This document shows positions 5,822-31,859 of a stretch of DNA of 64,000 nt, in pieces; positions within the stretch are counted from its first letter, which is position 1; every line of letters begins with the position of its first letter. Below the pieces are notes generated by a model, which ran no database searches, was not told where the DNA came from, and was given only the letters and a program-made list of their open reading frames with translations. The position numbers were made by a program, and so were the translations under genes. The DNA comes from Clostridiales bacterium (GTDB lineage: Bacteria; Bacillota; Clostridia; Peptostreptococcales; Anaerovoracaceae). Where the stretch lies: assembly GCA_012513435.1 (NCBI GenBank), contig JAAZCE010000009.1, positions 1 through 64,000 on the forward strand, read 5' to 3'.

Positions 5822-5841
5822 ACATTGCCACCCAGTAAGTA

Positions 5842-8893: not shown

Positions 8894-8907
8894 TCTGTAC
8901 CTCCGTT

Positions 8908-9249
8908 TTATTCTATTTCGATGCTTTCGATGTAAAATTCTTTTCCTATTTCAGTTGGCTTTCCCTGGCCGCCGCATTTAGGGCAATCAAAAGAAAGAAG
9001 CTGCCTTTTAAAGAGAATTCCGCAATCGGGGCATCTGAGCTTCGGCTCAATGTGTTCTATTTCAACCTTTGCCCCATGACAAATGGTATCTGAAGAAATG
9101 ACGTCGAAGTACATTTGTACTGATTCCCCCACGTATCCCGAATAGTCGCCAATTACAAGATTGACTTTTGTAACTCGGCTTCCACCTGCATTTTCACAGT
9201 GCTCCTGGGCTATTTTAATTATCTGCTGTGTGATAGGATATTCGTGCAT
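8908..9249 (-). CDS. hypA: Hydrogenase nickel-metallochaperone HypA
   Basis: 113 residues from the ATG at 9249, with AAAGGAG 5 bases upstream; upstream in-frame ATGs lie in AT-rich leader DNA. It starts MHEYPIT (His2 is the nickel ligand in the family) and has the zinc site CPDCG plus CPKCGG in the C-terminal half. HypA works with HypB to insert nickel into NiFe-hydrogenase and, in some organisms, supplies urease. First gene of the minus-strand hypA-hypB-hypF operon, divergent from the NSS transporter. Confidence 0.93.
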   Translation of the reverse strand: MHEYPITQQIIKIAQEHCENAGGSRVTKVNLVIGDYSGYVGESVQMYFDVISSDTICHGAKVEIEHIEPKLRCPDCGILFKRQLLSFDCPKCGGQGKPTEIGKEFYIESIEIE

Positions 9250-9289
9250 AAAACTCCTTTTATGGTAAAAAAACAAATTTATATACTTT

Positions 9290-9318
9290 ATTATAGGACT
9301 TTTTAGGCATATATACAA
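9290..9318 (-). promoter_or_regulatory. Sigma-A promoter of hypA-hypB-hypF
   Basis: On the minus strand, TTGTAT (9318-9313), a 17-base spacer and TATAAT (9295-9290) lie about 40 bases upstream of the hypA start. The -10 is a perfect match. Confidence 0.65.
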
Positions 9319-9375
9319 ATTATTTTTGAACATAAAAAAAATCATTTTTTTTTGTTGTTTTTAACAGAAAAAGTG

Positions 9376-9405
9376 TTGACAATCTTTGGAGACAACCACT
9401 ATAAT
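9376..9405 (+). promoter_or_regulatory. Sigma-A promoter of the NSS transporter unit
   Basis: TTGACA (9376-9381), an 18-base spacer and TATAAT (9400-9405), both hexamers perfect. The start codon is 60 bases downstream. The hyp promoter points the other way 58 bases to the left, so the two could share regulation. Confidence 0.75.
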
Positions 9406-9464
9406 TAAAAAGTGATTGTTATTACGAGCTATTATATTATTTTTTTGAGGAGAGTGAGTTAACA

Positions 9465-10955
9465 TTGAGAGAACAATGGAACACGAAACTGGGATTTATT
9501 CTGGCAGCCATTGGTTCAGCTGTAGGATTGGGTAATCTTTGGAGATTCCCGTACATAGCAGCTACAAACGGCGGTGGCGCGTTTATTTTCCCTTATTTAT
9601 TTGCTATTTTGACAGCAGGTATTCCTATTCTTATTTTGGAATACACATTAGGAAAAACCTACAGATCCGGAGCTCCCGGAACTTTCGCAAGAATCAACAG
9701 GAAGTTCGAGTGGCTGGGTTGGGCACAGGTTCTGACTTCATTCATTATTACGGTTTACTATTTCGCAATCGTTGTATGGGTACTCTCATACATAGCATTC
9801 TCATTTGGAAACAAGTGGGGAGAAGATACAGGCGGATTCTTCTATGGATTCCTTGGAATCACTGATTCTATGACAAGCGTAGGTGGGATACAGACTAATA
9901 TGCTTGTGCCGTTCTTCGCTGTATGGGCGATAGTAGGGTTCGTAATGTACAGAGGCATCAACAAGGGCATAGATATAGCATGTAAGATATGTCTGCCTAT
10001 ACTGCTTCTGTGTACAGTAATTATAGTAATCAGAGGCATAACTCTTCCTGGAGCTATCGATGGGCTTGCTTACATGTTTACACCGGACTGGTCGGCAATT
10101 GCCAAGCCTGATGTGTGGGTAGCAGCCTACGGACAGGTATTCTTCAGCTTATCTATAGCCTTTGCTATTATGATTTCTTACTCAAGCTACCTGCCTAAAA
10201 AGGAAGATGTTGTTAACACTGCATTTCTTACTGCATGCACGAACCACGGATTTGAAATTTTTGCAGGAATTGGCATTTTCTCAATCATTGGTTACATGGC
10301 ATATGCTCAGGGTGTAGGTGTGGAAGATGTTGCTGCGGCAGGCATCGGCCTAGCATTCGTAGTATTCCCTACAGCAATAAGCACATTGCCGGCACTTAAT
10401 ACATTGTTTGGAATACTGTTCTTCGTATCCCTGTTCACTGCAGGTATTACATCACTGATTTCGATTATTCAGGCTGTAATAACCGGCATTCAGGACAAGT
10501 GGGAAATGTCGCACACTAAGGCAACTACAGTAGTATTGGTTCCTGCATTCGTAATATCCTTCCTGTTTATAACAGGCGCAGGCCTTTACTTCCTGGATTT
10601 GGCAGATTACATTGCAAACAATATCGGTATCGTTATGTGCGGTGTTATCGAAGTTATTCTCATCGGATGGTTCTTTAAGCCTGAAAAGCTTAGAAAAGCT
10701 GCCAATGAGTATTCAAATTTCAGCGTTGGACAGTGGTGGACTTGGTGCCTTAAGGTTGTTACGGTTATCGTTTTAGGTTACACTACTGTTACTAATCTTA
10801 TTACCTATTTTAGAGACGGATATGAAGGCTATCCTATGTGGATCGGATTCATCATAATCGGATTCATGGTAGTTGGAACCATAGTATTGACAGCCATGAA
10901 GGGCAGAAAGAGCTTTTATGAGAAGCCTGATGATGCCCCTGGCTATGATGATTAG
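9465..10955 (+). CDS. Sodium-dependent NSS/SNF family amino-acid symporter, large subunit
   Basis: 496 residues, TTG start with GAGGAG upstream. Member of the neurotransmitter:sodium symporter family, which imports amino acids with sodium. TM1 has the family signature GSAVGLGNLWRFPY at about residues 17-30, containing the backbone ligands for substrate and sodium. About 11-12 hydrophobic helices follow, as in LeuT and MhsT, with no large extra domain. The tail ends YDD just before the small-subunit gene, 15 bases away. That pairing recalls MetP/MetS of Corynebacterium, a methionine and alanine importer, but the substrate cannot be read from the sequence. It separates hypABF from hypCDE. Confidence 0.92.
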   Translation: MREQWNTKLGFILAAIGSAVGLGNLWRFPYIAATNGGGAFIFPYLFAILTAGIPILILEYTLGKTYRSGAPGTFARINRKFEWLGWAQVLTSFIITVYYFAIVVWVLSYIAFSFGNKWGEDTGGFFYGFLGITDSMTSVGGIQTNMLVPFFAVWAIVGFVMYRGINKGIDIACKICLPILLLCTVIIVIRGITLPGAIDGLAYMFTPDWSAIAKPDVWVAAYGQVFFSLSIAFAIMISYSSYLPKKEDVVNTAFLTACTNHGFEIFAGIGIFSIIGYMAYAQGVGVEDVAAAGIGLAFVVFPTAISTLPALNTLFGILFFVSLFTAGITSLISIIQAVITGIQDKWEMSHTKATTVVLVPAFVISFLFITGAGLYFLDLADYIANNIGIVMCGVIEVILIGWFFKPEKLRKAANEYSNFSVGQWWTWCLKVVTVIVLGYTTVTNLITYFRDGYEGYPMWIGFIIIGFMVVGTIVLTAMKGRKSFYEKPDDAPGYDD

Positions 10956-10970
10956 CAAGGAGGTGCACGA

Positions 10971-11093
10971 ATGGGCACAAGTGCAATAGTAATGATGTGT
11001 ATAGCTTGTATTGGTTTGTGGGGCGGTTGCGGAGTCGCTCTCGCAATCATGATGAAGCATAACAAGCAGAAAAGAAATCAGGGCAAGCAGTAG
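10971..11093 (+). CDS. MetS-family small subunit of the NSS transporter
   Basis: A 40-residue ORF with AGGAGGTG 8 bases before the ATG. It is one hydrophobic helix (IVMMCIACIGLWGGCGVALA) followed by a basic tail (KHNKQKRNQGKQ), the layout of the MetS small subunits that sit directly after NSS large subunits. In Corynebacterium MetS is needed for transport by MetP; the same role here is inferred. A strong terminator follows 30 bases later. Confidence 0.8.
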   Translation: MGTSAIVMMCIACIGLWGGCGVALAIMMKHNKQKRNQGKQ

Positions 11094-11122
11094 CGAGCTC
11101 TTATAATACGACAAAAATTAAG

Positions 11123-11167
11123 GTACCCCGGCTCTGGTGCAAGATCAGATTCAGGGGTGCTTTTTTT
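11123..11167 (+). terminator. Intrinsic terminator after the NSS transporter unit
   Basis: Stem GTACCCC (11123-11129) pairs with GGGGTGC (11154-11160), with an inner TCTG/CAGA stem in the loop, followed by seven T. Confidence 0.8.
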
Positions 11168-11257
11168 AGGTTGAGGCCCATCAGGCTAAAAAGAGAATGA
11201 AGGTTAGGCAGTTGATATATGTTGATAATGTTTTTGTACTTATCGGAAGCAGGCAGG

Positions 11258-11286
11258 TTTACTATGTCTATCAAAAATTGTATAAT
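11258..11286 (+). promoter_or_regulatory. Promoter upstream of the YbaK/hypCDE unit
   Basis: TTTACT (11258-11263), a 17-base spacer and a perfect TATAAT (11281-11286). The first gene starts 83 bases downstream, and no other promoter is evident before hypC. Confidence 0.55.
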
Positions 11287-11368
11287 ATTAACGTTGAGTA
11301 GTTAAAAGATCAAAGGCGAAGATAAAACAGTAGCATTTATAGCGGCTAAGGATTGGAAGGAAAGTAAA

Positions 11369-11854
11369 ATGGCAATAGAAAAAGTAAGACAATATTTCAA
11401 GGAATTAGGAATAGACGACAGGATACAGGAGTTCGATGTTTCAAGTGCCACAGTTGAATTGGCGGCAGTAGCAGTAGGAACTGAACCGGCAAGAATCTGC
11501 AAAACCCTTTCTTTTCTCAAACCCGAAGGTGGGTGTATATTGATACAAACTGCTGGAGACAGTAAGGTTAACAACGGCAAATTTAAAAGGCAATTTGGTT
11601 TTAAGGCTAAAATGTTAAATGCCGATCAGGTGCTTGAATATACGGGACATGCCATAGGCGGAGTATGCGCCTTCGCAATCGACAGCGCCCAGGTTGAAGT
11701 CTACGCCGATGAATCCATGAAGAGGTTCGAGACCGTGTTTCCAGCATGCGGAAGCAGCAACAGCGCCATTGAGTTCACTTGTGATGAGCTGTTCAGATAT
11801 TCCAATGCTCTGGAGTGGATAGACGTATGCAAAATCCCTGAGGAGGAACAGTAA
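11369..11854 (+). CDS. YbaK/EbsC-type aminoacyl-tRNA deacylase
   Basis: 161 residues covering one YbaK/ProX domain, the usual size. These proteins hydrolyse mischarged aminoacyl-tRNA (for example Cys-tRNA-Pro or Ala-tRNA-Pro). Seen: ARICKTLSF near residues 50-58, the variable substrate-loop region, and IGGVCAF near 93 followed by acidic turns, matching the family core order. The first gene of the unit that continues into hypC with no gap (TAA then ATG). Its link to hydrogenase maturation is unclear; it may simply share transcription. Confidence 0.85.
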   Translation: MAIEKVRQYFKELGIDDRIQEFDVSSATVELAAVAVGTEPARICKTLSFLKPEGGCILIQTAGDSKVNNGKFKRQFGFKAKMLNADQVLEYTGHAIGGVCAFAIDSAQVEVYADESMKRFETVFPACGSSNSAIEFTCDELFRYSNALEWIDVCKIPEEEQ

Positions 11855-16431: not shown

Positions 16432-16965
16432 ATGCCTAAAATAATAGAAAATCTAAGGGCCGATATACTGGAAGAATCCATGAGAATAATAGAGTCTGAC
16501 GGTATAGACGGACTGAGCATAAGACGCCTTTCGGCAAATTTGGGGATAGCCCCTTCAACCATATACAATTATTACCAGGGAAAAGAACAGATAATAGGGG
16601 TTCTGACGAAGGTGCGCTGGGAGAAGGCTTTGAAGAAGATAGATGAGGGGTATTGTGAAAGCAATGATGCCGTAGAGGCCCTTTCCATGATAGTGGAGGA
16701 AATGAGAAGCTCCGTCAAATCTCTTGTTTTATTTCACATATCTTCTGTCCGTGAGCTGCACAGCTCAACTAGCTGCGCGGAAGACCACAAGAAGATAATT
16801 TTTAAACAGCTTCAGGAACGGGTAAAAAAGATTTTAGAAAATCAAAGAAATTCATATGAAGACATAAACTTTGCTTCCGCAACTATAACGAAGCTTATTG
16901 TCATGTGTATGCACGACAGCCAATTGAAATTTGAAGATTTGGCAGATGCCATAAAAAAACTATAA
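16432..16965 (+). CDS. TetR/AcrR-family transcriptional regulator
   Basis: 177 residues. The N-terminal helix-turn-helix is complete, with SIRRLSANLGIAPSTIYNYY at about residues 28-47, typical of TetR. The C-terminal ligand domain is short and not recognisable to a specific subfamily. GCAGGAGG precedes the ATG. It is followed 17 bases later by an MFS exporter, so the likely role is ligand-relieved repression of itself and the exporter through the 27-bp palindrome at 16391-16417. The inducer is not evident. Confidence 0.88.
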   Translation: MPKIIENLRADILEESMRIIESDGIDGLSIRRLSANLGIAPSTIYNYYQGKEQIIGVLTKVRWEKALKKIDEGYCESNDAVEALSMIVEEMRSSVKSLVLFHISSVRELHSSTSCAEDHKKIIFKQLQERVKKILENQRNSYEDINFASATITKLIVMCMHDSQLKFEDLADAIKKL

Positions 16966-16982
16966 AAAGGAGAACAGACAGA

Positions 16983-19328
16983 ATGAGCGAGGGCCGAGAA
17001 AGAGAACAAACAGAAAGGGCAAATATAGAGAAAATAGAGCTGACAAAGGCAGAGAAAAAGGATAAATTGGGATGGATAATGTCTTTATATCTTGTAGGCC
17101 TGTTTATAGGTGCTTTAAGCACAGGGATAATAACCCCTGTAAGGACTATTATTCAAACGTCACTGGGAGCTGACGACCAGCTTGGGATCTGGATGATAAC
17201 CATTTACACCTTGTGCTATGCGGCTATCATTCCTATATCAGGCAAGCTGGCCGACAGGCATGGAAGAAAGATAGTATTCATTATCAGTATCTTTTTATTT
17301 GGTGCAGGCTCGGTGATATGCGGTTTGTCAGCAGGAGCCGACAGCTTCGCAGTACTTCTCATAGGGAGAGTGGTTCAGGCTGTGGGAGCCGGCGGAATAA
17401 TGCCTATTGCTACCGCTGAATTTGGAACCAGCTTTCCTGAGGAAAAAAGGGGAATGGCTCTGGGCATGGTAGGAGGAGTTTACGGCATAGCCAATGTGCT
17501 GGGGGCTACTGCCGGGAGTGCTATAATTGATATTTTCGGAGTGGATAAATGGGAGTGGATATTTTACGTCAACATTCCATTCTGCATACTGATAATAGTG
17601 GGAAGCATAATATATATACCTAATCACAAAAGTGAAGTCGTATACAAAATCGATAAAATCGGTACGCTGCTGATGACTGTTATAATTCTGGCCCTGCTTT
17701 ACGGGCTGAAAAATCTTAACTTCTTTGATTTTCTTCATTCCCTTACGGAACGGGACGTATATCCATTCCTTCTGGCAGCACTGGTTTTGATCCCTCTCTT
17801 CGTATTTGTGGAAAACAAGGCAGAGGATCCTATTTTTCATATTGAATACATGAAGAACAGTCAGATAGTAGTAACGCTGATGATGGGTCTTCTGGTAGGC
17901 TCGTCCATGATGGGAATGATATTTATTCCGCAGTTTGCAGAAAACGCCCTTAAAATTTCTTCTGGAGACGGGGGGTATTTCGTAATAATCTTGGGCCTGT
18001 TTGCCGGTGCAGCCTCACCTGTAAGCGGTAAGCTCATAGACAAGTTTGGCTCAAAGCCTATTCTTGGTGCAGGATTTGCCATTTCTATAATAGGAGCCCT
18101 TTATTTGGCCTTCGTCGCTACGGCATATGTAAATATCTTCAATGTGGTCATAAGCCTTGTTTTGATAGGGCTTGGCATGGGTTTGACTATGGGGACGCCT
18201 CTAAACTATATGATGCTGCGCCACACCAGAGATGAAGACAGCAACTCCGCATTGGCTACCCTTTCTCTGGTACGATCTATAGGAACTGCCATCGCCCCAG
18301 CCATAATGGTAGGATTTTTGGCACAGGCAGGTGCTACCATGCAGGATGATTTAATGAAAGCCTTGCCTGAAATCCCACCGGTTCCTAAAATGGAGCAGCA
18401 GGTTGAGCTTCAGCCTATCATGGATCAACTGGGTGCAAGTGATGAATTTAATGAAATGATGGGAGATTCCGATTTAAACAGTATGCTCAATATGGATATG
18501 AGCATGGATATGGGAAAAACCGACAAGAATATGAAGCTGCCTGACGAACTTCTGAAGTCTCTCCAAAGCTCAGATGTGACGACTATAGTAGTCACATCCA
18601 AGAACATGGCCTCGTATATGTTTGAAACCAATACACCTGACGTAATCAAGGATATACAGGCTGGAATAAGCGAAGGAATAGACGGTATCGGAGAAGGCAT
18701 CAATGGAATAAGCTCAGGCATTGACGAGATGAATCAGGGATTGCAGGAAATAGATACGGGAAGAGCAGGCATAAAGCAGGGAATAGACGGAATATCTCAG
18801 GGAATTGCAGGTATGGAAACAGGCATAGCCAATCAGGGTAGAGGCATTGCTGCATTGAAGCAGAGGATAATCGAGGCCGAGGCAAACCTTGGAACAGACC
18901 CAGGTGAGCTAGCGAGATTAAGGGCCATGCTTACCCAGCTCCAGGATGCAGAAAATCAGCTGTCGGCAAAGCTGGAAACTTCAAAAGAGCAGAAGGCCTC
19001 TATGGAAAAAGCCTATAACGATATGGGAGTGGGAAGAACTCAGCTGGCCGGGGCGTTAGAGGAAGCTCAGGGACAAAAATGTCTTATGGCGGAAGCCAAG
19101 GACCTTATGGTCAGCATGAGGGATGATATACCAAGTGTATTCGCTCAGACAGAGGCGAACTATATGAAGTCCATAGATAAGAACAGTGAAAAAATTGAAG
19201 GAGTTTACCAAAAAATATTAAACGGCGGATTTAAAAATATGTTCATCTGTGTGGCAATTTTCAACATAATAGGATTGCTGCTTCTGGTTGCATATAAGGA
19301 CGACAGACGTCATATCCACAGAACGTAA
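16983..19328 (+). CDS. DHA2/EmrB-type MFS exporter with a long coiled-coil extracytoplasmic insert
   Basis: 781 residues, against about 480-520 for a usual 14-TM drug exporter. The N-terminal 450 residues carry the membrane helices and the MFS motif A (GKLADRHGRKI near residue 85). A long hydrophilic region then precedes one last helix (MFICVAIFNIIGLLLLVAY, about 745-765). That insert has a Met-rich acidic part near 485-510, a run of glycine-isoleucine repeats (GIDGIGEGINGISSGID and similar) near 558-620, and a coiled coil to about 705. Similar repeats occur in YhgE/Pip and some MMPL-type proteins. It probably exports a hydrophobic compound; the insert may span the wall or form a partner-binding stalk. 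Confidence 0.85.
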   Translation: MSEGREREQTERANIEKIELTKAEKKDKLGWIMSLYLVGLFIGALSTGIITPVRTIIQTSLGADDQLGIWMITIYTLCYAAIIPISGKLADRHGRKIVFIISIFLFGAGSVICGLSAGADSFAVLLIGRVVQAVGAGGIMPIATAEFGTSFPEEKRGMALGMVGGVYGIANVLGATAGSAIIDIFGVDKWEWIFYVNIPFCILIIVGSIIYIPNHKSEVVYKIDKIGTLLMTVIILALLYGLKNLNFFDFLHSLTERDVYPFLLAALVLIPLFVFVENKAEDPIFHIEYMKNSQIVVTLMMGLLVGSSMMGMIFIPQFAENALKISSGDGGYFVIILGLFAGAASPVSGKLIDKFGSKPILGAGFAISIIGALYLAFVATAYVNIFNVVISLVLIGLGMGLTMGTPLNYMMLRHTRDEDSNSALATLSLVRSIGTAIAPAIMVGFLAQAGATMQDDLMKALPEIPPVPKMEQQVELQPIMDQLGASDEFNEMMGDSDLNSMLNMDMSMDMGKTDKNMKLPDELLKSLQSSDVTTIVVTSKNMASYMFETNTPDVIKDIQAGISEGIDGIGEGINGISSGIDEMNQGLQEIDTGRAGIKQGIDGISQGIAGMETGIANQGRGIAALKQRIIEAEANLGTDPGELARLRAMLTQLQDAENQLSAKLETSKEQKASMEKAYNDMGVGRTQLAGALEEAQGQKCLMAEAKDLMVSMRDDIPSVFAQTEANYMKSIDKNSEKIEGVYQKILNGGFKNMFICVAIFNIIGLLLLVAYKDDRRHIHRT

Positions 19329-20288: not shown

Positions 20289-22799
20289 TTAATATTTAAT
20301 GACATTTATGATTTTGTTTCTCACCAGGTCGATAAATGTACGTCCCAGCTGCGGATCGAATTGCGTTCCCAAGTTGCGCTCGATTTCCAGCAGGGCATCT
20401 TCCAGCGGCATTTCCTTCTTGTATGAACGTTTTGAAACCATAGCATCAAAAGAATCGGCTATGGACAGGCATCTGGCGCTGACAGGAATATCTTCTCCTG
20501 AAATGCCGCGAGGGTAGCCTTTGCCGTCGAAGCGTTCATGATGTCCCAATACAGCGGGTATTACATAATCCAGAGATGGAAGGTGCCTTATCATCTCAAT
20601 GGAACGCTCGACATGCTGCCGCATGATGGAAAATTCCTCGGGAGCAAGTTTGCCGCTCTTTGTGAGAATAGCATCGGGGATGCCGATTTTGCCGATATCG
20701 TGAAGAAGGCCGGCTTGTTTAATTATTTCAATATTGTCCTTCTGTATTGCTGCGTTAGAAGCAAGTGCGGAAGCATATTCGGATACGCATTGAGAGTGGT
20801 TGAAGGTATAATGGTCTTTGGCATCAATTGCCGCAGTTAAGGCATATATGGTAGATGTCAGCTCCTGAATAGTACGGTTATCAGCATCCTTGCTGTTATC
20901 GGCATATTCATTAGGGGAACTGTATATTTCTATTTTGTTCTTACCATGCTGCTTTATCTGGAACACTGCCATGTTGGTGTAGGAAAGAAGCTGAGTCGAA
21001 TTTGCCGCCACACTTGGGTATGAGCAAATTCCGGCTGAGAAGGTAAGGAATTTCTTGATTCTCTCGTCGTTGTTTTCGATGTAATCGGAAAGAGCGTCTC
21101 TCACTTGTTCCGTTTTCATTTTTGCCGTATATACATCACAGTATGGCAAGAGAACAGCGAATTCCTTTCCGCCGTATCGTGAAATGATGCTGTCTGGGCC
21201 AAATACATTTTCAAGCATTGATGCCACATTCTTCAGCATTTGGTCACCTTCATCGTTGCCATAGAGTTCATTGTAGAGGCTGAAATCATCGAGATTCACA
21301 AGGACAAAGGTAATCGGCGAGGCTTTTTCGAAAAACTTCGCTTCAAGAGTCTTGTTGATAGCTCTCCTGTTAAGAAGTCCGGTGAGAGGGTCAAGCTGCG
21401 CTTCGCGTTCAAGAGTCTGATAAAGAGAAGCGTTTTTAATAGCGATAGATGCAACGGACACAACCGATTCAAGGAAGTTAATCTCCGAATAGGAATAAGG
21501 CTTGTTGTTTCCCTTTTCAGAGAAAATCACAAGGCCTATCAGTTTGTCATCCCCCTTGAATGGGAGAATGTATGTGGCATTTATAGATGTGAGAAGATTT
21601 TTCTCGAGCTCCCACATGCTTTTGTATGCATTTGTCTTCTGAAAATCGGAATAAAGCAGGCCGAAGCCCGTTTCCTGAAGTTTCTTTATAAGAGGATGGT
21701 CTGCCTTGAAATTAAGCGGGTGTTCCAGAGCCTGGGCGCATTCTGTGGAAACGTAAGCCTCGGCAGAGCTGTTGTACATACATATGTATATGTGCTCAGC
21801 AGCGACCTCTTCACGAACTAAATCTGTGAACATAAGGAGAATGTCGTCGGTTTTCAGTGTTGAGTTGACTGCGCCTGAAAAAGTGTGAACCAGATTTTCC
21901 TTATGGAGTTGTTCTCGTACAAACAGTCCGTCGTGAAGCTTGTTCATAAGCACGAATATTAGAATGGCAATAGCCGAACAGAATATGGTAATAATAAAGG
22001 GAGCACTGACGTTTATATTGCCAAAGTGGGAAGATATGAAGGCCTCTGCACTATCGTATATAGCTGCCAGAGACATCCCAGTAATCATAAGAGATACGAT
22101 ATACATAGAACCCTTTGAAGTGATCTGGCTTAAGGCGTAAAAACGCTTTTTGTAAAAAGCATAGTAAATACAGAATGCATTGACAGCACATGCCATCGTA
22201 TCGGAAGGCAAGGACTGCAGTTCGGGTATAATATTCAGTGCAACGCCGGCCATAAGAATAACAACACCGACTAAAAGCGGCACCATATAAGAAACGGCGA
22301 TGCTGTTATTTTTTATGCTGTTTCTAACTAGCTTATATATGCAGGCGAAAATAACCAGTGTAAGTACAACCGGGAATATTGAAGCAAGCTTAGTCGAATA
22401 GTTGGAAGAAATACTGTTTTCTATAACGTTGATCTCAGGGCTTGTCATGAAGACGTTAAACCAGTTCAGCACCACCATGAGAAGAGTTCCCAAACCAAGA
22501 ATAATCTTGAGGAAAGAGCCCTTCTGCTCAGTATAGGCAGATACTAGAAGGAAGTAGAGATACGGAACCATGAAGATTCCTGACAGAGAAACCTGCCACC
22601 AAAAAATAGTTCCCGGGAAGACTTGGCTTCTCATGAAGAAGGAGCCACCTGTCCAGAGAATAAAGGCAACCAAAAGACCCATAAAAGCATAGATAGATCT
22701 ATCCTTTTTAGCAGTCATTAAGGTAAACAACAGGAATATGTTGCAAAGCACCGCAATCAACGGAATCGTTGTAAACAGGAATTCACTGGATAAAATCAT
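20289..22799 (-). CDS. 7TM-GAF-GGDEF-HD-GYP signalling protein (probable c-di-GMP phosphodiesterase)
   Basis: 836 residues. Order: an N-terminal seven-helix region resembling the histidine-kinase 7TM sensor domain (1-230); a GAF-like domain (about 310-450); a GGDEF-fold domain (about 465-625); and an HD-GYP domain (about 645-830). The cyclase motif reads RYGGKEF, with Lys where catalytic Asp/Glu is required, so cyclase activity is doubtful. HD-GYP looks intact: HDIGKIG and HHERFDGKGYP. Most likely it senses a hydrophobic or membrane signal, uses GGDEF as a GTP sensor, and hydrolyses c-di-GMP. Its ATG overlaps the GH3 stop by 4 bases. Last gene of the degV operon. Confidence 0.87.
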   Translation of the reverse strand: MILSSEFLFTTIPLIAVLCNIFLLFTLMTAKKDRSIYAFMGLLVAFILWTGGSFFMRSQVFPGTIFWWQVSLSGIFMVPYLYFLLVSAYTEQKGSFLKIILGLGTLLMVVLNWFNVFMTSPEINVIENSISSNYSTKLASIFPVVLTLVIFACIYKLVRNSIKNNSIAVSYMVPLLVGVVILMAGVALNIIPELQSLPSDTMACAVNAFCIYYAFYKKRFYALSQITSKGSMYIVSLMITGMSLAAIYDSAEAFISSHFGNINVSAPFIITIFCSAIAILIFVLMNKLHDGLFVREQLHKENLVHTFSGAVNSTLKTDDILLMFTDLVREEVAAEHIYICMYNSSAEAYVSTECAQALEHPLNFKADHPLIKKLQETGFGLLYSDFQKTNAYKSMWELEKNLLTSINATYILPFKGDDKLIGLVIFSEKGNNKPYSYSEINFLESVVSVASIAIKNASLYQTLEREAQLDPLTGLLNRRAINKTLEAKFFEKASPITFVLVNLDDFSLYNELYGNDEGDQMLKNVASMLENVFGPDSIISRYGGKEFAVLLPYCDVYTAKMKTEQVRDALSDYIENNDERIKKFLTFSAGICSYPSVAANSTQLLSYTNMAVFQIKQHGKNKIEIYSSPNEYADNSKDADNRTIQELTSTIYALTAAIDAKDHYTFNHSQCVSEYASALASNAAIQKDNIEIIKQAGLLHDIGKIGIPDAILTKSGKLAPEEFSIMRQHVERSIEMIRHLPSLDYVIPAVLGHHERFDGKGYPRGISGEDIPVSARCLSIADSFDAMVSKRSYKKEMPLEDALLEIERNLGTQFDPQLGRTFIDLVRNKIINVIKY

Positions 22800-24424
22800 G
22801 CTCCATCACTTCCCATCTCAATCCCATCATAAAGCAGGTGATTTAGGTCAATCACATCCTGCATTGAAGGATTTATTTTTCGCATAGAAGAACCGAAGCG
22901 GTCCTCATAGCGTTTAAGAGACCTCACAGGAAGAATAGTGATTTTAAGAGGTTCTATCCCCAGAAGGCGTTTCAAATCGTTGTAATCGTGGTCGTAGTGG
23001 CGAAAATATGCGCTGAAATGTTCCTTAATAAGCTGTTCGTTAAGAAAGGCAGATTCCGGAGTATCCGTGTCCAGTTCCACGTAAAAATGCATAAAGGAGC
23101 GTTTATCGCCGTCGTATTCCTTGAGGGCAAACCAGTCCCCAACAGGAAGACGTGATAATTCCAACACGCGCTTGATGCTGGCTTCCGTTATCCTTGTGAA
23201 TCCGGCAATATCAATGATAGTTGGAATTCTGTCTAAATATTCAAATTGAGGAAGCATTACGTTGTCATGCTCGTTGACTGTACGCAGACAACGATAAACG
23301 TCACCGGGACGATAGCGCATGAAGGCACCGCCCTTGAACAAGGTAAGGACTATTTCATAATTTCTGTTGGCCGTGACTTCGTTCATGAGATAAGTCTTCG
23401 GAACATAGTCAGGATCAGCTTCGTTTTTGAGCATTTCATCGACAGGTATAAATTCATAGAAGGCATTGTCAGGGAAGAAAACAAGTCCGTTGCGACTCCA
23501 GGTTTCGGTTCCCAAGCACGACGGTTCAGTTCCCCCGTGTATCTCAAGAGGCTTCCTTCCCCAGTTCTTTTCCAGCTCTTCCTTGAAAAGACTGGTGTCG
23601 GTACCAACGCATACGAAGCCCTTAAGATCAAATATATCCTTCGGCATCATGGGTCTGTTGTCCCGTGAGCTGAGGTATTTAGCTTTAAGTATCCTTACGA
23701 GCATATTAGGCCTTATGCCAATAAGGTTCTTTAAATTGACAGAGCCGGAGGAAGTGAAGTGTTCGAAATTTTTGGTTATGGTATATACAACACTGCTCAT
23801 TCCGAAGAACTGGTCCAGGCCAGCCTTCATGGCAGTGTAAAATCCGCGCTTGTTCTGCTCGCTGAAGGAAAGATTACGAGCGTCCTTTATGGACGGCATG
23901 AAGTGAAGGTCAATTTCAGGAGCAATCAAAAGAGGAAAGAGCCCTGTCGCATAAGGCAAAGGAGCCAGACCGTAAAGGGCTCTGTCGCCTGAGCGAACAG
24001 CAAACTTGCCGCGTTCCTCGCTAGTGGAAAGAATCATGGCTGCAATAATGTTATTTGAATAAATGTCAAGCATTTGCTTTGAGTAAGGAGCCAGCTTCTT
24101 AGGGCGGCTTCCACTTTCCCACGTGGTTTCAAGCCACACCACAGGCTCTGCCGGCAGCATGCTTTTTCGCTGATTGAGAAGTATGTCAGCGTAATCATCG
24201 TATGTAGTGAGAGGAACCGTCTTTCTAAACTCTTCGGGAGTTTCAGGCTTCTGTCCATGCATTATTCTTTTGCCCATGCCTGAGTCGGAAAAAAGCTCAA
24301 TCTGCTCATGGAGAAGGCGGTATTGAATATCCATATATTCATCTATGGATAAATCAAGAAAACCACAGTATTCATCCCAGATTTCCTGCTGTGAACATTT
24401 TTTTAGCTTGGTTTTGAAGCGCAT
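22796..24424 (-). CDS. GH3-family acyl-adenylating ligase
   Basis: 542 residues, close to GH3 family length. GH3 enzymes (ANL superfamily) adenylate a carboxylic acid and join it to an amino group, as in plant auxin and jasmonate conjugation; bacterial substrates are mostly unknown. Seen: TWESGSRPKKLAPYS near residues 100-115, corresponding to the GH3 nucleotide loop; GGTEPSCLGTE in the middle; and RYRPGDVYRC near 370-380 followed by the helical C-terminal part. GGAGGAAT lies upstream. It sits between a membrane methyltransferase-like gene and a c-di-GMP-type signalling gene, which suggests it makes or modifies an acyl metabolite tied to that pathway. Confidence 0.85.
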   Translation of the reverse strand: MRFKTKLKKCSQQEIWDEYCGFLDLSIDEYMDIQYRLLHEQIELFSDSGMGKRIMHGQKPETPEEFRKTVPLTTYDDYADILLNQRKSMLPAEPVVWLETTWESGSRPKKLAPYSKQMLDIYSNNIIAAMILSTSEERGKFAVRSGDRALYGLAPLPYATGLFPLLIAPEIDLHFMPSIKDARNLSFSEQNKRGFYTAMKAGLDQFFGMSSVVYTITKNFEHFTSSGSVNLKNLIGIRPNMLVRILKAKYLSSRDNRPMMPKDIFDLKGFVCVGTDTSLFKEELEKNWGRKPLEIHGGTEPSCLGTETWSRNGLVFFPDNAFYEFIPVDEMLKNEADPDYVPKTYLMNEVTANRNYEIVLTLFKGGAFMRYRPGDVYRCLRTVNEHDNVMLPQFEYLDRIPTIIDIAGFTRITEASIKRVLELSRLPVGDWFALKEYDGDKRSFMHFYVELDTDTPESAFLNEQLIKEHFSAYFRHYDHDYNDLKRLLGIEPLKITILPVRSLKRYEDRFGSSMRKINPSMQDVIDLNHLLYDGIEMGSDGA

Positions 24425-24445
24425 AGAGATTCCTCCTTTCTATCC

Positions 24446-24955
24446 CTATAAGAAGCGGGTTTCTTTTTTGTATTCCTCGTATCCTTCCAGATAAACAGGA
24501 AAGAAGTATTTGTCCTGCAACCAGACATAAAGCAGGTTTAGCAAAGCGAACCAAAGTGCAGACACAAAAGCTTCAGGAACAGCTATTCCCGTTGCTATGC
24601 TGCACATGAGAAAACACCAGACGCCGGGATGGCGAACTTTACTGTAAAAGCCCTTTCTGCTTACGGGGGTCTTGAGGCCGTCCTTTGCATATCCCTTCTT
24701 ATCAACGGGGATGGTCATAACATAGACATACAGTGCCGCACCTATGGCGAGTACGGTAATTCCTGCGCCAAAGCCTTTGTTGTATTCAATGGGCCCTCTT
24801 AGGAAGAGCATGAGCCACGATAAAAGCAGCAGTGCCGTTCCTATGAGAAACCAGGGATTGTACCTTTTTATGCCTTTGCGGGCGCTTTGACATTTGCTGT
24901 ACTCAAAAAGCACCAGTATGCCGAAAGACAATGTTCCGGTGATGTTCCAAATCAT
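24446..24955 (-). CDS. Integral membrane methyltransferase-like protein (ICMT/PEMT type)
   Basis: 169 residues from the ATG at 24955, which overlaps the degV stop by 4 bases. About four hydrophobic helices. The C-terminal half shows the isoprenylcysteine or phospholipid methyltransferase pattern: YSKVRHPGVWCFLM (RHP motif) near residues 110-123, and the end YLEGYEEYKKETRFL, where the E-Y-x-x-Y segment contributes to the SAM pocket in this group. The substrate is not evident; in this operon an acyl or lipid substrate would make sense. 21 bases separate it from GH3. Confidence 0.75.
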   Translation of the reverse strand: MIWNITGTLSFGILVLFEYSKCQSARKGIKRYNPWFLIGTALLLLSWLMLFLRGPIEYNKGFGAGITVLAIGAALYVYVMTIPVDKKGYAKDGLKTPVSRKGFYSKVRHPGVWCFLMCSIATGIAVPEAFVSALWFALLNLLYVWLQDKYFFPVYLEGYEEYKKETRFL

Positions 24956-25818
24956 AGAAAGTCCTTTTTTGTAAATGCCATACCTGCACAACCACTGCCG
25001 GTATATATGCCTATTACGGGACCGACAGCTTGGATGCCGATGGACGCATTAGGTGCGAAGCCTAGTATCTGTTTTTTTATTTCTTCTGCCCGTTCAGGTG
25101 CAGAGGCATGGAAAACGGTTATAGGATAGTGAAAATCCGTTTCATTTTTCGCTATTTTCATAAGCTGACCGATGCCGTCTAAGAAGTTTTTGGCTAAGCC
25201 GAAGTCTCTTACAAGACCGTCTGAGAACCTGAGCATAGGCTTGATTCCCAAAGCGTCAGCTGTCAAGGCTTTGATTGCACCTACTCGGCCGCCCTTACGG
25301 GCATTCTTTAGGGATTCCAGTACGAAATAGACTCCCATTCGGTTTTGCAGTTTGTCAAGCTGAGAAATAATCTGTTCCGCGGAAAGACCTTGGTCGGCGA
25401 GGCGTGATGCCTGTCGAACCAGCTGGGCCATACCGTGAGAGCATTGCTTCGTATCGTAAACATAAATCGGCACAGAAAAACCGCGACGCTCTATCATTTT
25501 GGATGCCGATAGAGCTGCAGAATAACACGCCGACATTTTGGAAGTTATCATCAGGCAAAGTATTTCTTCGGAGTTTTCGCCGACCTTCCGAAATGCGTTC
25601 ATAAAATCCGCCGTAGTGGGACGCGAACTTGTAGGTAACTGAGAGGCTTGTTCCAGTTTATCATAAAACTCCTCTGCAGTGATATCGAACATGTTTCTGT
25701 ATTCTTCGTTGCCAAATAAGATTCGGTCTGGTATTACTGATATATTCAGCGATTCAGCTTCTTTAAGGGGCATGTCGCAGCCAGTGTGCGTAATCAAGCC
25801 TGTTTTCCTTTGATTCAT
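24952..25818 (-). CDS. DegV family fatty-acid-binding protein (FakB-like)
   Basis: 288 residues from the ATG at 25818, with AAAGGGG upstream. DegV proteins bind a fatty acid in the cleft and, when partnered with FakA, present it for phosphorylation. Seen: N-terminal THTGCDMP (Asp/Ser-type start of the family); the TSRPTTADF segment near 74-82, which matches the conserved TSQPS region contacting the carboxylate; and GGRVGAIKA near 180, the LxGGR-type motif. First gene of the operon and divergent from a FakA-like gene, so a FakA/FakB pair is a reasonable inference. Confidence 0.88.
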   Translation of the reverse strand: MNQRKTGLITHTGCDMPLKEAESLNISVIPDRILFGNEEYRNMFDITAEEFYDKLEQASQLPTSSRPTTADFMNAFRKVGENSEEILCLMITSKMSACYSAALSASKMIERRGFSVPIYVYDTKQCSHGMAQLVRQASRLADQGLSAEQIISQLDKLQNRMGVYFVLESLKNARKGGRVGAIKALTADALGIKPMLRFSDGLVRDFGLAKNFLDGIGQLMKIAKNETDFHYPITVFHASAPERAEEIKKQILGFAPNASIGIQAVGPVIGIYTGSGCAGMAFTKKDFL

Positions 25819-25875
25819 AACATCGGACCCCTTTGTTATCAATAGTATTAAACAATGTAATGTGCGAAAATTCAA

Positions 25876-25924
25876 ATTAGCGCGCAACTAATAACATTAT
25901 ATATCAATTTCAGGAGAAATGCAA
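25876..25924 (-). promoter_or_regulatory. Promoter and small inverted repeat upstream of the degV operon
   Basis: On the minus strand, TTGCAT (25924-25919), a 17-base spacer and a perfect TATAAT (25901-25896). Just downstream lies the inverted repeat ATTAG/CTAAT with a 7-base GC-rich centre (25876-25892), positioned where a repressor could act. The regulator is not known. Confidence 0.6.
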
Positions 25925-25962
25925 AGAAATTAAAAAAACTATAGAGGGGTGAAAGGTTGATA

Positions 25963-25991
25963 TTGCTCAATTTGCCGAAAGTCAGTATAAT
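25963..25991 (+). promoter_or_regulatory. Promoter directly against the start of the FakA-like gene
   Basis: TTGCTC (25963-25968), a 17-base spacer and a perfect TATAAT (25986-25991). A start site 6-7 bases downstream of the -10 would fall on the ATG at 25998 itself, predicting a leaderless mRNA. Confidence 0.45.
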
Positions 25992-25997
25992 AAAGAT

Positions 25998-26906
25998 ATG
26001 TGTGAATTAATAGGTGCTGAACAGGTGAGAAATGGGCTTCGCTTTGCCCTAAGGAACCTGAAAAGCGAAAAGGACAACTTAAATGCATTAAATCTTTATC
26101 CGGTTGCTGATAAGGATACGGGAACTAATCTCGTTCATTCCATGAGCCTGACCCTTGACAATCTGCCCCAGGAGGATTCTGCCTCAGCCGTGTTCAAGGA
26201 TGTGTCGGACCTTCTGCTTGAGTACGCCTATGGAAGCTCAGGGACTATTTTGAATCTTTTCTTTGAAGGCTTTGCAGAAGGCTTGCAGGACAAAGAGTAC
26301 CTTTCGGGAACAGATTTAGCAAGGGCCTTTGATGCAGGAGTGCAGCGAGCTGTATACGGAGTGGAAAAGCCTGAAAACGGAACTATACTTTCAGTGGGAA
26401 GGCAAAGCGCCGAGGCGGGACTTTCCGTTTTGGAGATAACAGAGGATGCCAGCGTAGTTTGGAAGAGGATTACAGAGGAGGGCCACGCGGCACTGCAGCT
26501 TACGCCAACCCAGAACCCGAGGCTTAAGGGAAGTGGCGTAATGGATTCCGGAGCCTATGGCTTGTGCCTTATACTGGATGGATTTCTTGAAAGTTTTGAG
26601 CCGGAGGCCGTAAAAATCCCTTATCCCGATTTGATATTTCCCGATAGCAAAAAAAACGGCGAAAGCGGAGGAGCTTTGTACAGATACTGTACGGAGTTTG
26701 TGGTCAGGCTGGGAGATATTGCGGCTTTGGAAGAAATCAAAGGTAGTATCGCCGAGCTGGGCAATTGTTTCCTTTGCGCTTCAAACGGGGATTCCGTCAA
26801 AGTCCACATCCATACCAACAAACCTGAAGAGGTTCTAGAACTGGCCAGTAAGATAGGAAAGCTCCATTCGCAGAAAATTGATGATATGGAGAGGCAGATG
26901 CTTTGA
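25998..26906 (+). CDS. Short FakA-like DAK2-domain protein
   Basis: 302 residues; full FakA is about 550. The N-terminal DAK2 domain binds ATP and magnesium: NLYPVADKDTGTN near residues 33-45 keeps both Asp residues of the usual PDGDTGTN motif, and YGSSGTILNLFFEGF follows near 75-90. The FakA middle domain is present and ends at VKVHIHTNKPEEVLELA and a terminal DDMERQML. The third, C-terminal DegV-interacting region is absent. No ribosome site precedes the ATG; a TATAAT lies 6 bases upstream. Paired with divergent degV, it probably phosphorylates an acyl substrate, or regulates such a reaction if inactive. Confidence 0.8.
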   Translation: MCELIGAEQVRNGLRFALRNLKSEKDNLNALNLYPVADKDTGTNLVHSMSLTLDNLPQEDSASAVFKDVSDLLLEYAYGSSGTILNLFFEGFAEGLQDKEYLSGTDLARAFDAGVQRAVYGVEKPENGTILSVGRQSAEAGLSVLEITEDASVVWKRITEEGHAALQLTPTQNPRLKGSGVMDSGAYGLCLILDGFLESFEPEAVKIPYPDLIFPDSKKNGESGGALYRYCTEFVVRLGDIAALEEIKGSIAELGNCFLCASNGDSVKVHIHTNKPEEVLELASKIGKLHSQKIDDMERQML

Positions 26907-29055: not shown

Positions 29056-29132
29056 GTGACAATGATGTAGAATTAATTTAAAATAGAGAAGAAATAGTAA
29101 ACAGCCTGATAAGTTGGCCTATTGGGCTGTTT
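29056..29132 (+). promoter_or_regulatory. Promoter and leader hairpin of the sigma-54 activator gene
   Basis: GTGACA (29056-29061), a 17-base spacer and TAAAAT (29079-29084). In the leader, AAACAGCC (29099-29106) can pair with GGCTGTTT (29125-29132), just upstream of the GGGAGG ribosome site. The hairpin could affect translation or early termination, but there is no long T run. Confidence 0.45.
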
Positions 29133-29158
29133 ATGTCATTAAAAGGGAGGCCTTTATC

Positions 29159-30553
29159 GTGAAACCGGAAACTGCCAAAGAGGTACTTGAAATAATTGAT
29201 TGCATACGTGATGGTATATTTATTACAGATGGTGAGGGAAAAGTCATTTTACTCAATAAATCTTCTGAGGCTTTGAGCAAACACAAAAGGGAAGAGTATA
29301 TGGGGAACTATGTGGATAAAATGATAAATGCCGGCTTCTTCGATGAGAGTGAGGTCGTTTCCTTGAAATGCATAGAAACGGAAAAGGAGCAGAGCCTTAT
29401 ACAAAAAGGTCTTGATGAAAACCATGAAGTGCTTGTTACAGGTGTCCCTTTTATAAAAAACGGTAAGGTAGATAAGGTCATAGTTACAGAAAGAGACATT
29501 TCCTATCTGAACAAGCTGGAAGAGAAGCTGCGATACAGCCAATATCTCAACCATAAGTACAAGGAGGAGCTTCAGTATTTTCGTAGCCTTGATTCAGAAG
29601 TTACGAAACATGTAGTGTATGAAAGCAGCCAGATGAGAAAGGCGATATATCTGGCTACGAGGACTGCTGAGCATGATACGACAATATTGCTGCAGGGAGA
29701 ATCCGGCACGGGCAAGGAGGTGATAGCCAAGCTCATATACAAATCCAGCAAACGAAAGGACAAGCCCTTCATAAAGATAAACTGCGGAGCCATACCAGAG
29801 AACCTTTTGGAGTCAGAGCTTTTTGGCTATGAAAAGGGGGCGTTTACGGGAGCAGATAATAATGGAAAGATAGGCCTCTTTGAATTGGCAAACGAAGGGA
29901 CTCTTTTCCTAGACGAAATAGGCGATTTGGCGCTTCATCTACAGGTAAAGATATTGAGGGCGGTACAGGAAAAGGAGATAATGAGAGTTGGAGGAAACAG
30001 CTATATACCTATAGATGTGCGAATAATCGCGGCTACCAATGCTGACCTGAAGGAAATGATAAAGGAAGGAAAGTTCAGAAGCGATTTGTATTACAGATTG
30101 AATGTGGTTCCTATAATGATAGACCCTTTGAGAAACAGAAAGGCAGACATACGCCCCCTCACTGAGATGTTTCTGAAAAACTTCAACAGGAAATACGGAA
30201 CGGAAAAGAAGATATCTGAAGAGGGCTTGCACTCTCTCACCAAGTATTCCTGGCCGGGGAATGTAAGAGAACTGGAAAACTTCATAGAGAGGTTGGTAGT
30301 AATCTCTGAAGGTGATGTAATAAATGTGAAGCAGATGGTAAGTCAGTTCCCGGACCTTGACATAGAATTTCCTGTGCAGGGCAAAAATACTTTCAAGGAA
30401 AAGGTCGAAGAGTATGAGAAAAAACTCATAATGTCACAGATGCAGTATTATAATAGCAGCCAGGAGCTCGCTGACGGATTTGGCATTGACAAGTCTACTT
30501 TAACCAGAAAAATGCGTCGATATGACATAGCAAATACATATACGGATAAATAG
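29159..30553 (+). CDS. PAS-domain sigma-54-dependent transcriptional activator
   Basis: 464 residues from a GTG start at 29159 with GGGAGG 8 bases upstream; an in-frame ATG at 29114 lies in the leader hairpin and has no ribosome site. Order: PAS domain (about 5-115); AAA+ sigma-54 domain with GESGTGKE (Walker A), the GAFTGA loop that contacts sigma-54, and GTLFLDEIGDL (Walker B); then a Fis-like HTH (SSQELADGFGIDKSTLTRKM). It activates polymerase held at -24/-12 promoters. The only such promoter seen nearby is at 30678-30693, in front of the alanine-dehydrogenase-like gene, so that is the likely target. Confidence 0.92.
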   Translation: MKPETAKEVLEIIDCIRDGIFITDGEGKVILLNKSSEALSKHKREEYMGNYVDKMINAGFFDESEVVSLKCIETEKEQSLIQKGLDENHEVLVTGVPFIKNGKVDKVIVTERDISYLNKLEEKLRYSQYLNHKYKEELQYFRSLDSEVTKHVVYESSQMRKAIYLATRTAEHDTTILLQGESGTGKEVIAKLIYKSSKRKDKPFIKINCGAIPENLLESELFGYEKGAFTGADNNGKIGLFELANEGTLFLDEIGDLALHLQVKILRAVQEKEIMRVGGNSYIPIDVRIIAATNADLKEMIKEGKFRSDLYYRLNVVPIMIDPLRNRKADIRPLTEMFLKNFNRKYGTEKKISEEGLHSLTKYSWPGNVRELENFIERLVVISEGDVINVKQMVSQFPDLDIEFPVQGKNTFKEKVEEYEKKLIMSQMQYYNSSQELADGFGIDKSTLTRKMRRYDIANTYTDK

Positions 30554-30569
30554 AGACTTTGGGGTAATA

Positions 30570-30624
30570 TTGCATTTTGGTGCAAATTTACACTGGAATT
30601 TTGGGAGACCATTTTGTTGCCAAT
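30570..30624. promoter_or_regulatory. Candidate enhancer sites for the sigma-54 activator
   Basis: The dyad TTGCA-TTTTGG-TGCAA (30570-30585) contains the repeat ATTTTGGTGCAAAT (30574-30587). A close copy, ATTTTGTTGCCAAT, stands at 30611-30624, 37 bases further on. Both lie 54-108 bases upstream of the -24/-12 promoter, the usual place for activator binding. Confidence 0.5.
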
Positions 30625-30677
30625 TATTGAAACGTTGAAGTTCTAAGGTTTTGGGCAATATAAGGCCTTTCTTTTTT

Positions 30678-30693
30678 TGGCATTGTTATTGCT
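30678..30693 (+). promoter_or_regulatory. Sigma-54 (-24/-12) promoter of the alanine-dehydrogenase-like gene
   Basis: TGGCA (30678-30682), six bases, TTGCT (30689-30693): the exact spacing and core of the -24/-12 consensus TGGCAC-N5-TTGCA/T. The predicted start is near 30704, 34 bases upstream of the ATG. Confidence 0.8.
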
Positions 30694-30737
30694 TTATATA
30701 TGTGCATAAGAATAATAAAAGAAAGAGAGGTAAGCAA

Positions 30738-31859
30738 ATGATAATAGGAACACCAAAGGAATTAAAAGAAAACGAAACAAGGGTTGCAATGACTCCAAAA
30801 TGGGCAAAGAAACTTATTGATGCGGAACATGAGATTTGGATACAGAAGGATGCCGGACTTAACAGTGGATTCAGCAATGAGGATTACATCAACGCAGGAG
30901 CTAACATAGCTGATTCTATCGAAGAGATTTACGAAAGGTCGGAGTTCGTAACAAAGGTAAAGGAACTTAAGCCATACGAGTACAACTTAATCAGAGAAGA
31001 CCAAATGGTAATGACGTGGTTCCATCTTGCAGAGGACTATGATAAACCTATGGCACAGGCACTCATGGACAGGGAGACCATTGCTCTTTCGATGGAGCTT
31101 ATAGTATTGAATGACGGTTCACGTCCTACGATGAAGCCTATGAGTGATATAGCAGGAAGCCTTGCTATGATGGAATCCATAAAATACTGTCAGACCATGA
31201 ATGGCGGGACAGGTCTGCTCTTAAGAAAGGTTTATGGACTGCCTATTCCGAAAGTAGTCGTTCTCGGTGGTGGAAGTGCCGGGCTTAATGCCGCACAAGT
31301 AGCAGTGGGGCTAGGGCTTAAGGTCAGCATAATCGAGGCCTCATGGAATAGGATAGATTACCTTAAAGCGATTATTCCTGAAGCGGAAGTTATACTCTTC
31401 GAGGAAAAATCCGTTGCGGAACTGCTTGAAGACTGCGATGTATTCATAAACTGCATATATCCTTCTCCGGAACCTGGGCATAGGGAACCTATTGTAAAGA
31501 GGGAAACCATAAGGAACATGAAAAAGTGTTCATTAATAATGGATATTGCAGGTGCTGAAATAGTTGAAACGTCCCACTATACTACTCTGGGAGACCCCAC
31601 GTATACCGAGGAAGACATATTGCATTACTGCGTTCCTAATATGCCTGCACTTTGTCCGAGAACATCAACCGAGGCGCTTCTCATGATAACTGGACCTTAC
31701 ATCATGAACATTGCAAACAAGGGTCTTAAAAAGGCAGCGGAAGATGATTCTTCAATAAAAAGATGTATAAGTACGGTGAAGGGAAATATAGTACATTCTG
31801 AAATAGGAATAAACCAGGAGATGCCTTATACCGAATTCAGCTTCGATATGTTGGATTAA
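30738..31859 (+). CDS. ald: Alanine dehydrogenase-like NAD-dependent amino-acid dehydrogenase
   Basis: 373 residues from the ATG at 30738, with GAGAGG upstream. Family match: MIIGTPKELKENETRVAMTP at the N-terminus (substrate Arg), TKVKEL (Lys near 75), WFHLAE (catalytic His near 96), a Rossmann motif VVLGGGSAGLNAA near 172, and HYCVPNMPALCPRTST. Alanine dehydrogenase converts alanine to pyruvate and ammonia with NAD. This protein is divergent: the family segment around the catalytic Asp (DxAxDQGG) reads MDIAGAEIVE and is two residues shorter, so another amino acid may be the substrate. Driven by a sigma-54 promoter and next to the activator, a common layout for amino-acid catabolism in Clostridia. 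Confidence 0.82.
   Translation: MIIGTPKELKENETRVAMTPKWAKKLIDAEHEIWIQKDAGLNSGFSNEDYINAGANIADSIEEIYERSEFVTKVKELKPYEYNLIREDQMVMTWFHLAEDYDKPMAQALMDRETIALSMELIVLNDGSRPTMKPMSDIAGSLAMMESIKYCQTMNGGTGLLLRKVYGLPIPKVVVLGGGSAGLNAAQVAVGLGLKVSIIEASWNRIDYLKAIIPEAEVILFEEKSVAELLEDCDVFINCIYPSPEPGHREPIVKRETIRNMKKCSLIMDIAGAEIVETSHYTTLGDPTYTEEDILHYCVPNMPALCPRTSTEALLMITGPYIMNIANKGLKKAAEDDSSIKRCISTVKGNIVHSEIGINQEMPYTEFSFDMLD

Follow-up and report, generated by a model that had tools for sequence, protein, structure and literature searches.

A recurrent methyltransferase-GH3-7TM receptor cassette that may couple an acyl-type signal to c-di-GMP

In diffusible signal factor (DSF) systems (RpfF/RpfC/RpfG; RpfR), the signal is made by RpfF, and RpfG has an HD-GYP output. 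RpfR couples a fatty signal to a cyclic di-GMP (c-di-GMP) phosphodiesterase (PMC8846402). In the Ralstonia PhcB/PhcS system, a methyltransferase makes a fatty-acid-type signal, a methyl 3-hydroxy-fatty-acid, which is read by a sensor (PMC8578825). Plant GH3 enzymes conjugate hormones, activating or inactivating them (PMC11253546), and in the planctomycete OlsH/OlsG/OlsI set the bacterial GH3-like amide synthetase OlsH uses ATP and free fatty acids to form N-acyl ornithine and is encoded next to an N-methyltransferase gene (PMC12493201). These bacterial systems each resemble part of a locus in a 64,000-nucleotide stretch of a Clostridiales bacterium genome (positions 1 to 64,000 of contig JAAZCE010000009.1, GenBank assembly GCA_012513435.1; hereafter, the window), where three minus-strand genes encode a membrane methyltransferase, a GH3-type synthetase and a seven-transmembrane (7TM) receptor. 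We describe this trio as a widely conserved unit and consider, less firmly, what it may do.

The first gene of the trio specifies an integral-membrane methyltransferase of the ICMT/PEMT superfamily (open reading frame (ORF) 24446-24991; with the likely ATG at 24955, 24446..24955), the second a synthetase of a distinct GH3 subfamily (22796..24424; PF23571 and PF03321 above cut-off) and the third an 836-residue 7TM-GAF-GGDEF-HD-GYP receptor (20289..22799; PF16927, PF00990, PF13487 and a weak GAF match), whose 7TM domain occupies residues 1-230 (22110..22799). A sequence-only reading of this DNA had proposed a module of five, adding a DegV/FakB-like gene on the same strand (ORF 24952-25887; with the likely ATG start at 25821, 24952..25821; PF02645, E 2.9e-64) and, on the plus strand, a gene for a short DAK2/FakA-like protein of 302 residues (25998..26906; Dak2 and FakA-like_M above cut-off). 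All five ORFs are indeed present and open in that arrangement, the short FakA facing the other four. The tight packing on one strand holds for two junctions, DegV/methyltransferase and GH3/sensor, which with the likely starts are 4-base overlaps, but 21 bases separate the methyltransferase from GH3. The same reading had rightly seen a 7TM part and an HD-GYP domain in the sensor but overlooked its GGDEF (E 7.7e-31) and weak GAF (E 0.003) domains.

The arrangement goes beyond chance because it is found again in relatives that otherwise have mostly unrelated genes on its flanks. Genomes of the window's family (247), order (297), class (391) and phylum (398) were searched: GH3 of the cassette type was found in 29 of the first set, and GH3 in 29 of the second (one, G230, with an ordinary GH3 only), in 15 of the third (eight with ordinary, weakly scoring GH3s only) and, at E<=1e-30, in 13 of the fourth. 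These sets overlap; 59 distinct genomes and two named metagenome-assembled genomes (L002 and L003) make 61, from which 64 loci were analysed (16 family labels plus the two named genomes). The 64 are not independent: G068 and G364 contribute two copies each, G134 contributes two pieces of one gene, and some genomes are close kin; many are fragmented drafts. L004, on a contig that equals that of L046 in length and match position, was left out of the counts, and an IMG/VR contig, L206, also stands outside them. Where the contig leaves room, GH3 is followed in 61/61 loci (the other three reach the contig edge) by the receptor gene, of which a contig end or a split frame sometimes leaves the N-terminal part only, and is preceded by the methyltransferase in 59 of 60 (four others of the 64 stop at the edge). 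Gene order is constant in every locus that shows the trio, and the genes abut or overlap, with median gaps of 2 and -4 bases. The one locus of those 60 without a preceding methyltransferase, L121 in G364, has none within the available 1.2 kb; this locus (5451-9537) is a second, diverged copy whose GH3 has a degenerate motif I (TTRDGARGTNK), and the 309-residue protein encoded upstream has no Pfam match at E<=0.01. Two copies also occur in one small genome, G068 (L057 and L063), on short contigs whose ends cut the receptors, and GH3 or receptor frames are split in L046 (9915-11545), L126 (9678-12214), L038 (65-2560) and L003 (3723-6128).

Clustering of the 748 ORFs from the 64 loci places DegV (10 loci) and the short FakA (7) after the trio in frequency; the next commonest flank cluster is found in 6/61 genomes, and several others in five or fewer. 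Apart from SpoIVA, the flank clusters were left unannotated, and at that resolution no mobile-element or other gene, DegV and FakA aside, stands beside the trio in more than 6/61 genomes. SpoIVA, a sporulation protein, is encoded directly after the receptor at 13577-15085 of L040 and in four other loci, all in the window's family. The widely conserved unit is the methyltransferase-GH3-7TM receptor trio. The five-gene proposal was to be judged by whether its genes lay scattered in relatives with no repeated linkage; the linkage proved repeated and strong. Of its genes, GH3 and the receptor stay together across relatives, and DegV and the short FakA are attached to them in one clade.

The pairing extends to whole genomes. 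Used as a query (E<=0.001), the receptor's 7TM domain recovers the same 29/247 family genomes as GH3, while 218 hold neither, and in none of the 247 does either a cassette-type GH3 or the 7TM domain occur alone (Fisher p 2e-38, for genomes that are not independent of one another). A cassette-type methyltransferase (E<1e-50) is present in 28 of the 29 and in no other genome of the 247; in the 29th, G227 (L062), GH3 is cut at the contig end. Weaker methyltransferase matches only, the best at 3.4e-11, occur in 35 further family genomes. A 7TM profile, run against 108 genomes of the order, gave strong matches (E<1e-44) in 13, all within the GH3-match set. Would any GH3 keep such company? This is ruled out by eight ordinary GH3 loci (L131-L138; class level, G230), which have no methyltransferase or 7TM neighbour.

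To judge from its sequences, the trio is a horizontally mobile cassette. GH3 and RpoB identities correlate at r 0.25 over 27 genomes (RpoB was located in 27/30 genomes asked, and the remaining three were dropped). G066, from the window's family, and G529 (one contig), from a different family of the class, are 78% identical in GH3 and 68% in RpoB; for G364, from the window's order, and G827, with only the phylum in common, the values are 76% and 64%. Conversely, G190, a member of the window genome's own genus, shares 89% identity with it in RpoB and 50% in GH3. GH3 identity above RpoB identity between distant taxa indicates that the trio moves as a unit; taxonomy as the source of the pattern is ruled out because GH3 and RpoB disagree. 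In five distant locus pairs, of eight compared, the methyltransferase and receptor are also related, and their flanks have no ORF matches except one weakly similar protein pair (L116/L158). The window's own flanks have only DegV and FakA in common with L002 and L035, and nothing with L044. Across 48 trios, the distances of 7TM, GH3 and methyltransferase correlate at r 0.76-0.90, and those of HD-GYP and methyltransferase at 0.64. As for the vehicle, the IMG/VR contig L206 (3986-10214) has a phage endolysin gene followed by a complete trio near the contig end; viral carriage in general was not accepted from this single contig, on which the trio may lie inside a prophage or beside one. Plasmid carriage was also rejected, as the search gave no match to the window's GH3 protein.

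The window's GH3 scores 49.1 bits against PF23571 and 33.5 bits against PF03321 (cut-offs 23.6), and the GH3 profile matches plant GH3 structures. Motifs II (GGTE) and III (RYRPGD) are kept, with GTE and RYR.GD invariant in 27/27 rows. Motif I, by contrast, reads TTWESGSRPKK and departs from the usual [ST]SG[TS].G..K; the form TTWESGSRP.K characterizes the window's clade, TTWEGG or TTWKGG types are found in nearly all other relatives, and ordinary TSG-type loops are kept only in L161, L162, L163 and L165. FTR replaces EKT at the hinge, and ahead of motif III stands GGAF, in a segment two residues longer than in ordinary GH3s. The predicted chemistry is ATP-dependent amide formation. A profile built from 29 methyltransferase relatives matches the solved ICMT 4a2n (E 1.6e-4 over 145 profile positions); at E<=1, PEMT (phospholipid methyltransferase) matches 20/29 of them and ICMT 11/29, and R120 H121 P122, F164, Y171 and Y174 are invariant.

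The receptor matches HisKA_7TM (PF16927) at 40.2 bits (cut-off 28.6), and 18/25 relatives match it at E<=0.01; sequence-profile searches found no solved relative of the 7TM domain. Its output half has GGKEF in place of GG[DE]EF, with HD and HHERFDGKGYP intact; with an inactive-looking GGDEF and an intact HD-GYP, the window's receptor is predicted to have a phosphodiesterase output. Among 49 full sensors (those under 640 residues, from contig ends and split frames, were dropped before this count), the GGDEF site holds K in 35, E in 10 and D in 4, and the HD-GYP pattern (HD, HHE..DG.GYP) is kept in 46, the window's included; the motif is altered in L112 and L165, and L163 is without the domain. 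The L163 receptor (9488-11467, genome G834) is of a 7TM-GAF-GGDEF type with an intact GGDEF motif, in a cassette otherwise alike, and presumably gives the opposite c-di-GMP output. Mean identity is lowest in the 7TM and GAF parts (28-29%), against 59% in HD-GYP and 49% in GH3; the 7TM-part residues conserved at >=90% are W49, M56, R57, P62, W67, Y134, G178, G185, P198 and D200. The output thus changes sign or balance by lineage while the 7TM and GAF parts remain paired with the two enzymes, the pattern to be expected were the ligand a product of those enzymes.

If the three genes travel and work together, what would they do? We regard it as moderately probable that they form a mobile synthase-receptor cassette in which an acyl-type signal controls c-di-GMP. 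This proposal starts from linkage, co-occurrence, co-transfer, domain content and motif states; the substrates, the reaction order, the identity of product and ligand, and action between cells are what we infer from them. GH3 would activate a carboxylic (probably fatty) acid and conjugate the activated acid with an amino acid or an amine; the GH3 product would then become an ester or N-methyl derivative through the membrane methyltransferase; the methylated product would be membrane-permeable and need no dedicated exporter; and the 7TM domain would bind it in the membrane and, via GAF, govern the domains that act on c-di-GMP. The FakB-like DegV of the window's clade, together with a kinase like FakA_NL, that is, FakA without its C domain, may supply or recycle the acyl substrate. 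An acyl-signal route to c-di-GMP, as first suggested from the sequence, stays the best reading, although the core has shrunk to a trio and the receptor has gained a GGDEF domain. Quorum-sensing systems are recognized by a signal synthase and receptor encoded together; here the gene linkage is seen and the enzyme-ligand relation is predicted.

Ornithine lipid synthesis begins with OlsH, which is encoded next to olsG, an N-methyltransferase gene (PMC12493201); PEMT, moreover, is the Pfam family that most of the methyltransferases match. The trio's enzymes might by this token make a methylated aminoacyl membrane lipid, with the 7TM protein monitoring its own cell's membrane and no cell-to-cell signal. 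We consider this rather unlikely: a lipid pathway would be expected somewhere without the sensor, yet 0/247 family genomes split the GH3 type from 7TM, and no gene suited to such a second lipid step is repeatedly found next to the trio (among the unannotated clusters, the commonest after DegV/FakA reaches 6/61 genomes). Less probable still, and in our view improbable, is that the enzymes act on an external aromatic or fatty acid, inactivating or tuning it much as plant GH3 does with auxin, while the receptor senses that acid. The hormone conjugation by plant GH3 (PMC11253546) offers a precedent, and an obligate receptor-enzyme pairing fits this idea equally; a quencher, however, requires no fixed receptor partner, and since the trio has no further widely recurrent neighbour, genes for uptake or breakdown do not recur widely beside it either. 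That the three are functionally unconnected neighbours hitch-hiking on a mobile element, as movement between taxa and the trio behind a phage endolysin gene on the IMG/VR contig might suggest, is most improbable given the constant order, the abutting or overlapping genes and the lack of a recurrent mobile-element gene (none in more than 6/61 genomes, DegV/FakA aside).

Several observations weigh against the synthase-receptor cassette. Ordinary adenylation by its GH3 is not assured because motif I and the hinge depart from the usual GH3, and the window's methyltransferase falls under the Pfam cut-off (ICMT 16.9 vs 24 bits). The second copy in G364 is without a methyltransferase, and the split frames in L003, L038, L046 and L126 may be errors or decay. 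Weak 7TM relatives (1.5e-12 to 7.8e-6) appear in 8/108 order genomes, none of them GH3 matches; a tight 7TM subfamily is thus bound to GH3, whereas the distant superfamily is not exclusive. Close relatives share flanks, and five loci from a single family have SpoIVA after the receptor. Finally, the window genome is marked as 7.4% contaminated and G066 as 9%, and this, together with the fragmented drafts, weakens claims of single transfers.

DegV and the short FakA are clade-specific additions to the trio. All eight loci of the window's clade that have upstream sequence place DegV immediately before the methyltransferase, and seven of them have a divergent FakA beyond it (385 residues in L039, about 300 in each of the other six); L003, the remaining locus, is cut. 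These loci form one branch in a GH3 tree from which frames under 480 residues had been removed; the split L046 is not in the tree, and the cut L037 falls within the branch. As core genes both were rejected: among 32 family-level or named loci, 7 have an adjacent DegV, 22 do not and 3 end before it, and 14/26 cassette genomes are without Dak2. The 12 genomes with Dak2 comprise 7/7 in the window's clade and 5/19 elsewhere; one of the clade, G044, has a second, full-length Dak2 protein. DegV is adjacent to the trio in 8 of the 10 loci that have it, the window's included; in the other two, from two genomes of a single genus (L122:997-1830 and L125:15724-16557), a separate DegV gene sits on the opposite strand at a distance of about 5.5 kb.

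The window's DegV exceeds the cut-offs of PF02645 and TIGR00762, is the sole PF02645 match in its genome and shares T86, S87, S116, R201 and H260 with its relatives (identical in 8/8). The short FakA, likewise the genome's sole PF02734 match, has Dak2 (N) and FakA-like_M (L) only; no C-terminal FakB-binding domain is matched, so the N-L-C set of a full FakA is incomplete, and the protein scores 235 of 396 bits for YloV and 171 of 975 bits for FakA. A Cys-His-His triad is present: C231, H270 and H272, identical in 7/7, are equated by motif context with C240, H282 and H284 (PMC9136124). Staphylococcus aureus FakA_NL is active, with a roughly tenfold higher KM for FakB (0.99 vs 0.09 uM; PMC9136124). 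From its domain content, the window's short FakA looks like a natural FakA_NL, and as such it would offer a ready test of a kinase working without the FakB-binding domain. More tentatively than the cassette itself, we propose a new class of bacterial hormone systems, widespread and mobile in the window's phylum, in which a rebuilt-loop GH3 of the plant-hormone type and a methyltransferase would produce a methylated acyl-amide and a 7TM receptor would directly control c-di-GMP; in the window's clade, FakB-bound acyl phosphate from the natural FakA_NL may replace adenylation.

The region between DegV and FakA had been taken to hold two promoters. Promoter-like matches do lie on both sides, TTTGCA-18-TATAAT (10/12; 25896..25925, minus strand) before DegV and TATAAT (25986..25991, plus strand) just upstream of the short FakA, but they are consensus matches only, the latter is absent from the promoter scan list, and the scan overall gave 16 matches vs 13.4 expected. 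The window is part of contig 86 of a 2.28-Mb genome in 109 contigs. On one side of the cassette (16432-19328), a TetR-type regulator gene is followed by one for a 781-residue MFS transporter whose long C-terminal part is not of transporter type, a pair that the window does not share with the three cassette loci set against it; on the other (29114-31859), a PAS-sigma-54 activator gene lies upstream of a gene that we take to be alanine-dehydrogenase-like.

How does the cassette compare with known systems? The initial remark that no described system has this gene set stands among open PMC papers: among the entries listed by searches of that literature, none described a methyltransferase-GH3-7TM receptor set. 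The Ralstonia PhcB/PhcS system presumably has neither GH3 nor an ICMT-like enzyme. Its sensor PhcS is a histidine kinase (PMC8578825), whereas that of the cassette is a c-di-GMP enzyme. RpfR senses through PAS9 (PMC8846402); in the cassette, a single 7TM protein holds sensing and output. OlsH has a motif I of the usual type, TSGTTQGATK, which is rebuilt in the cassette GH3, and OlsI, an O-acyltransferase, is part of an ornithine-lipid pathway for which the accessible part of the paper describes no receptor (PMC12493201). FakA/FakB share with the window's additions the DegV/FakB family and the FakA N and L domains with Cys-His-His; unlike standard FakA, the window's protein is without the FakB-binding C domain, and its gene faces the GH3 cassette. 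HisKA_7TM sensors have the 7TM domain in common with the cassette receptor, in which it is attached to GAF-GGDEF-HD-GYP and not to a histidine kinase. The cassette could give a 7TM sensor of the HisKA_7TM family its ligand, and a 7TM receptor whose presumed synthase is encoded alongside it would represent a new type. Because it is small, portable and complete, the cassette could be moved to laboratory hosts and its product read by mass spectrometry. Synthase-receptor pairs are of a known kind; the combination of this enzyme pair with this receptor is, as far as we have seen, new.

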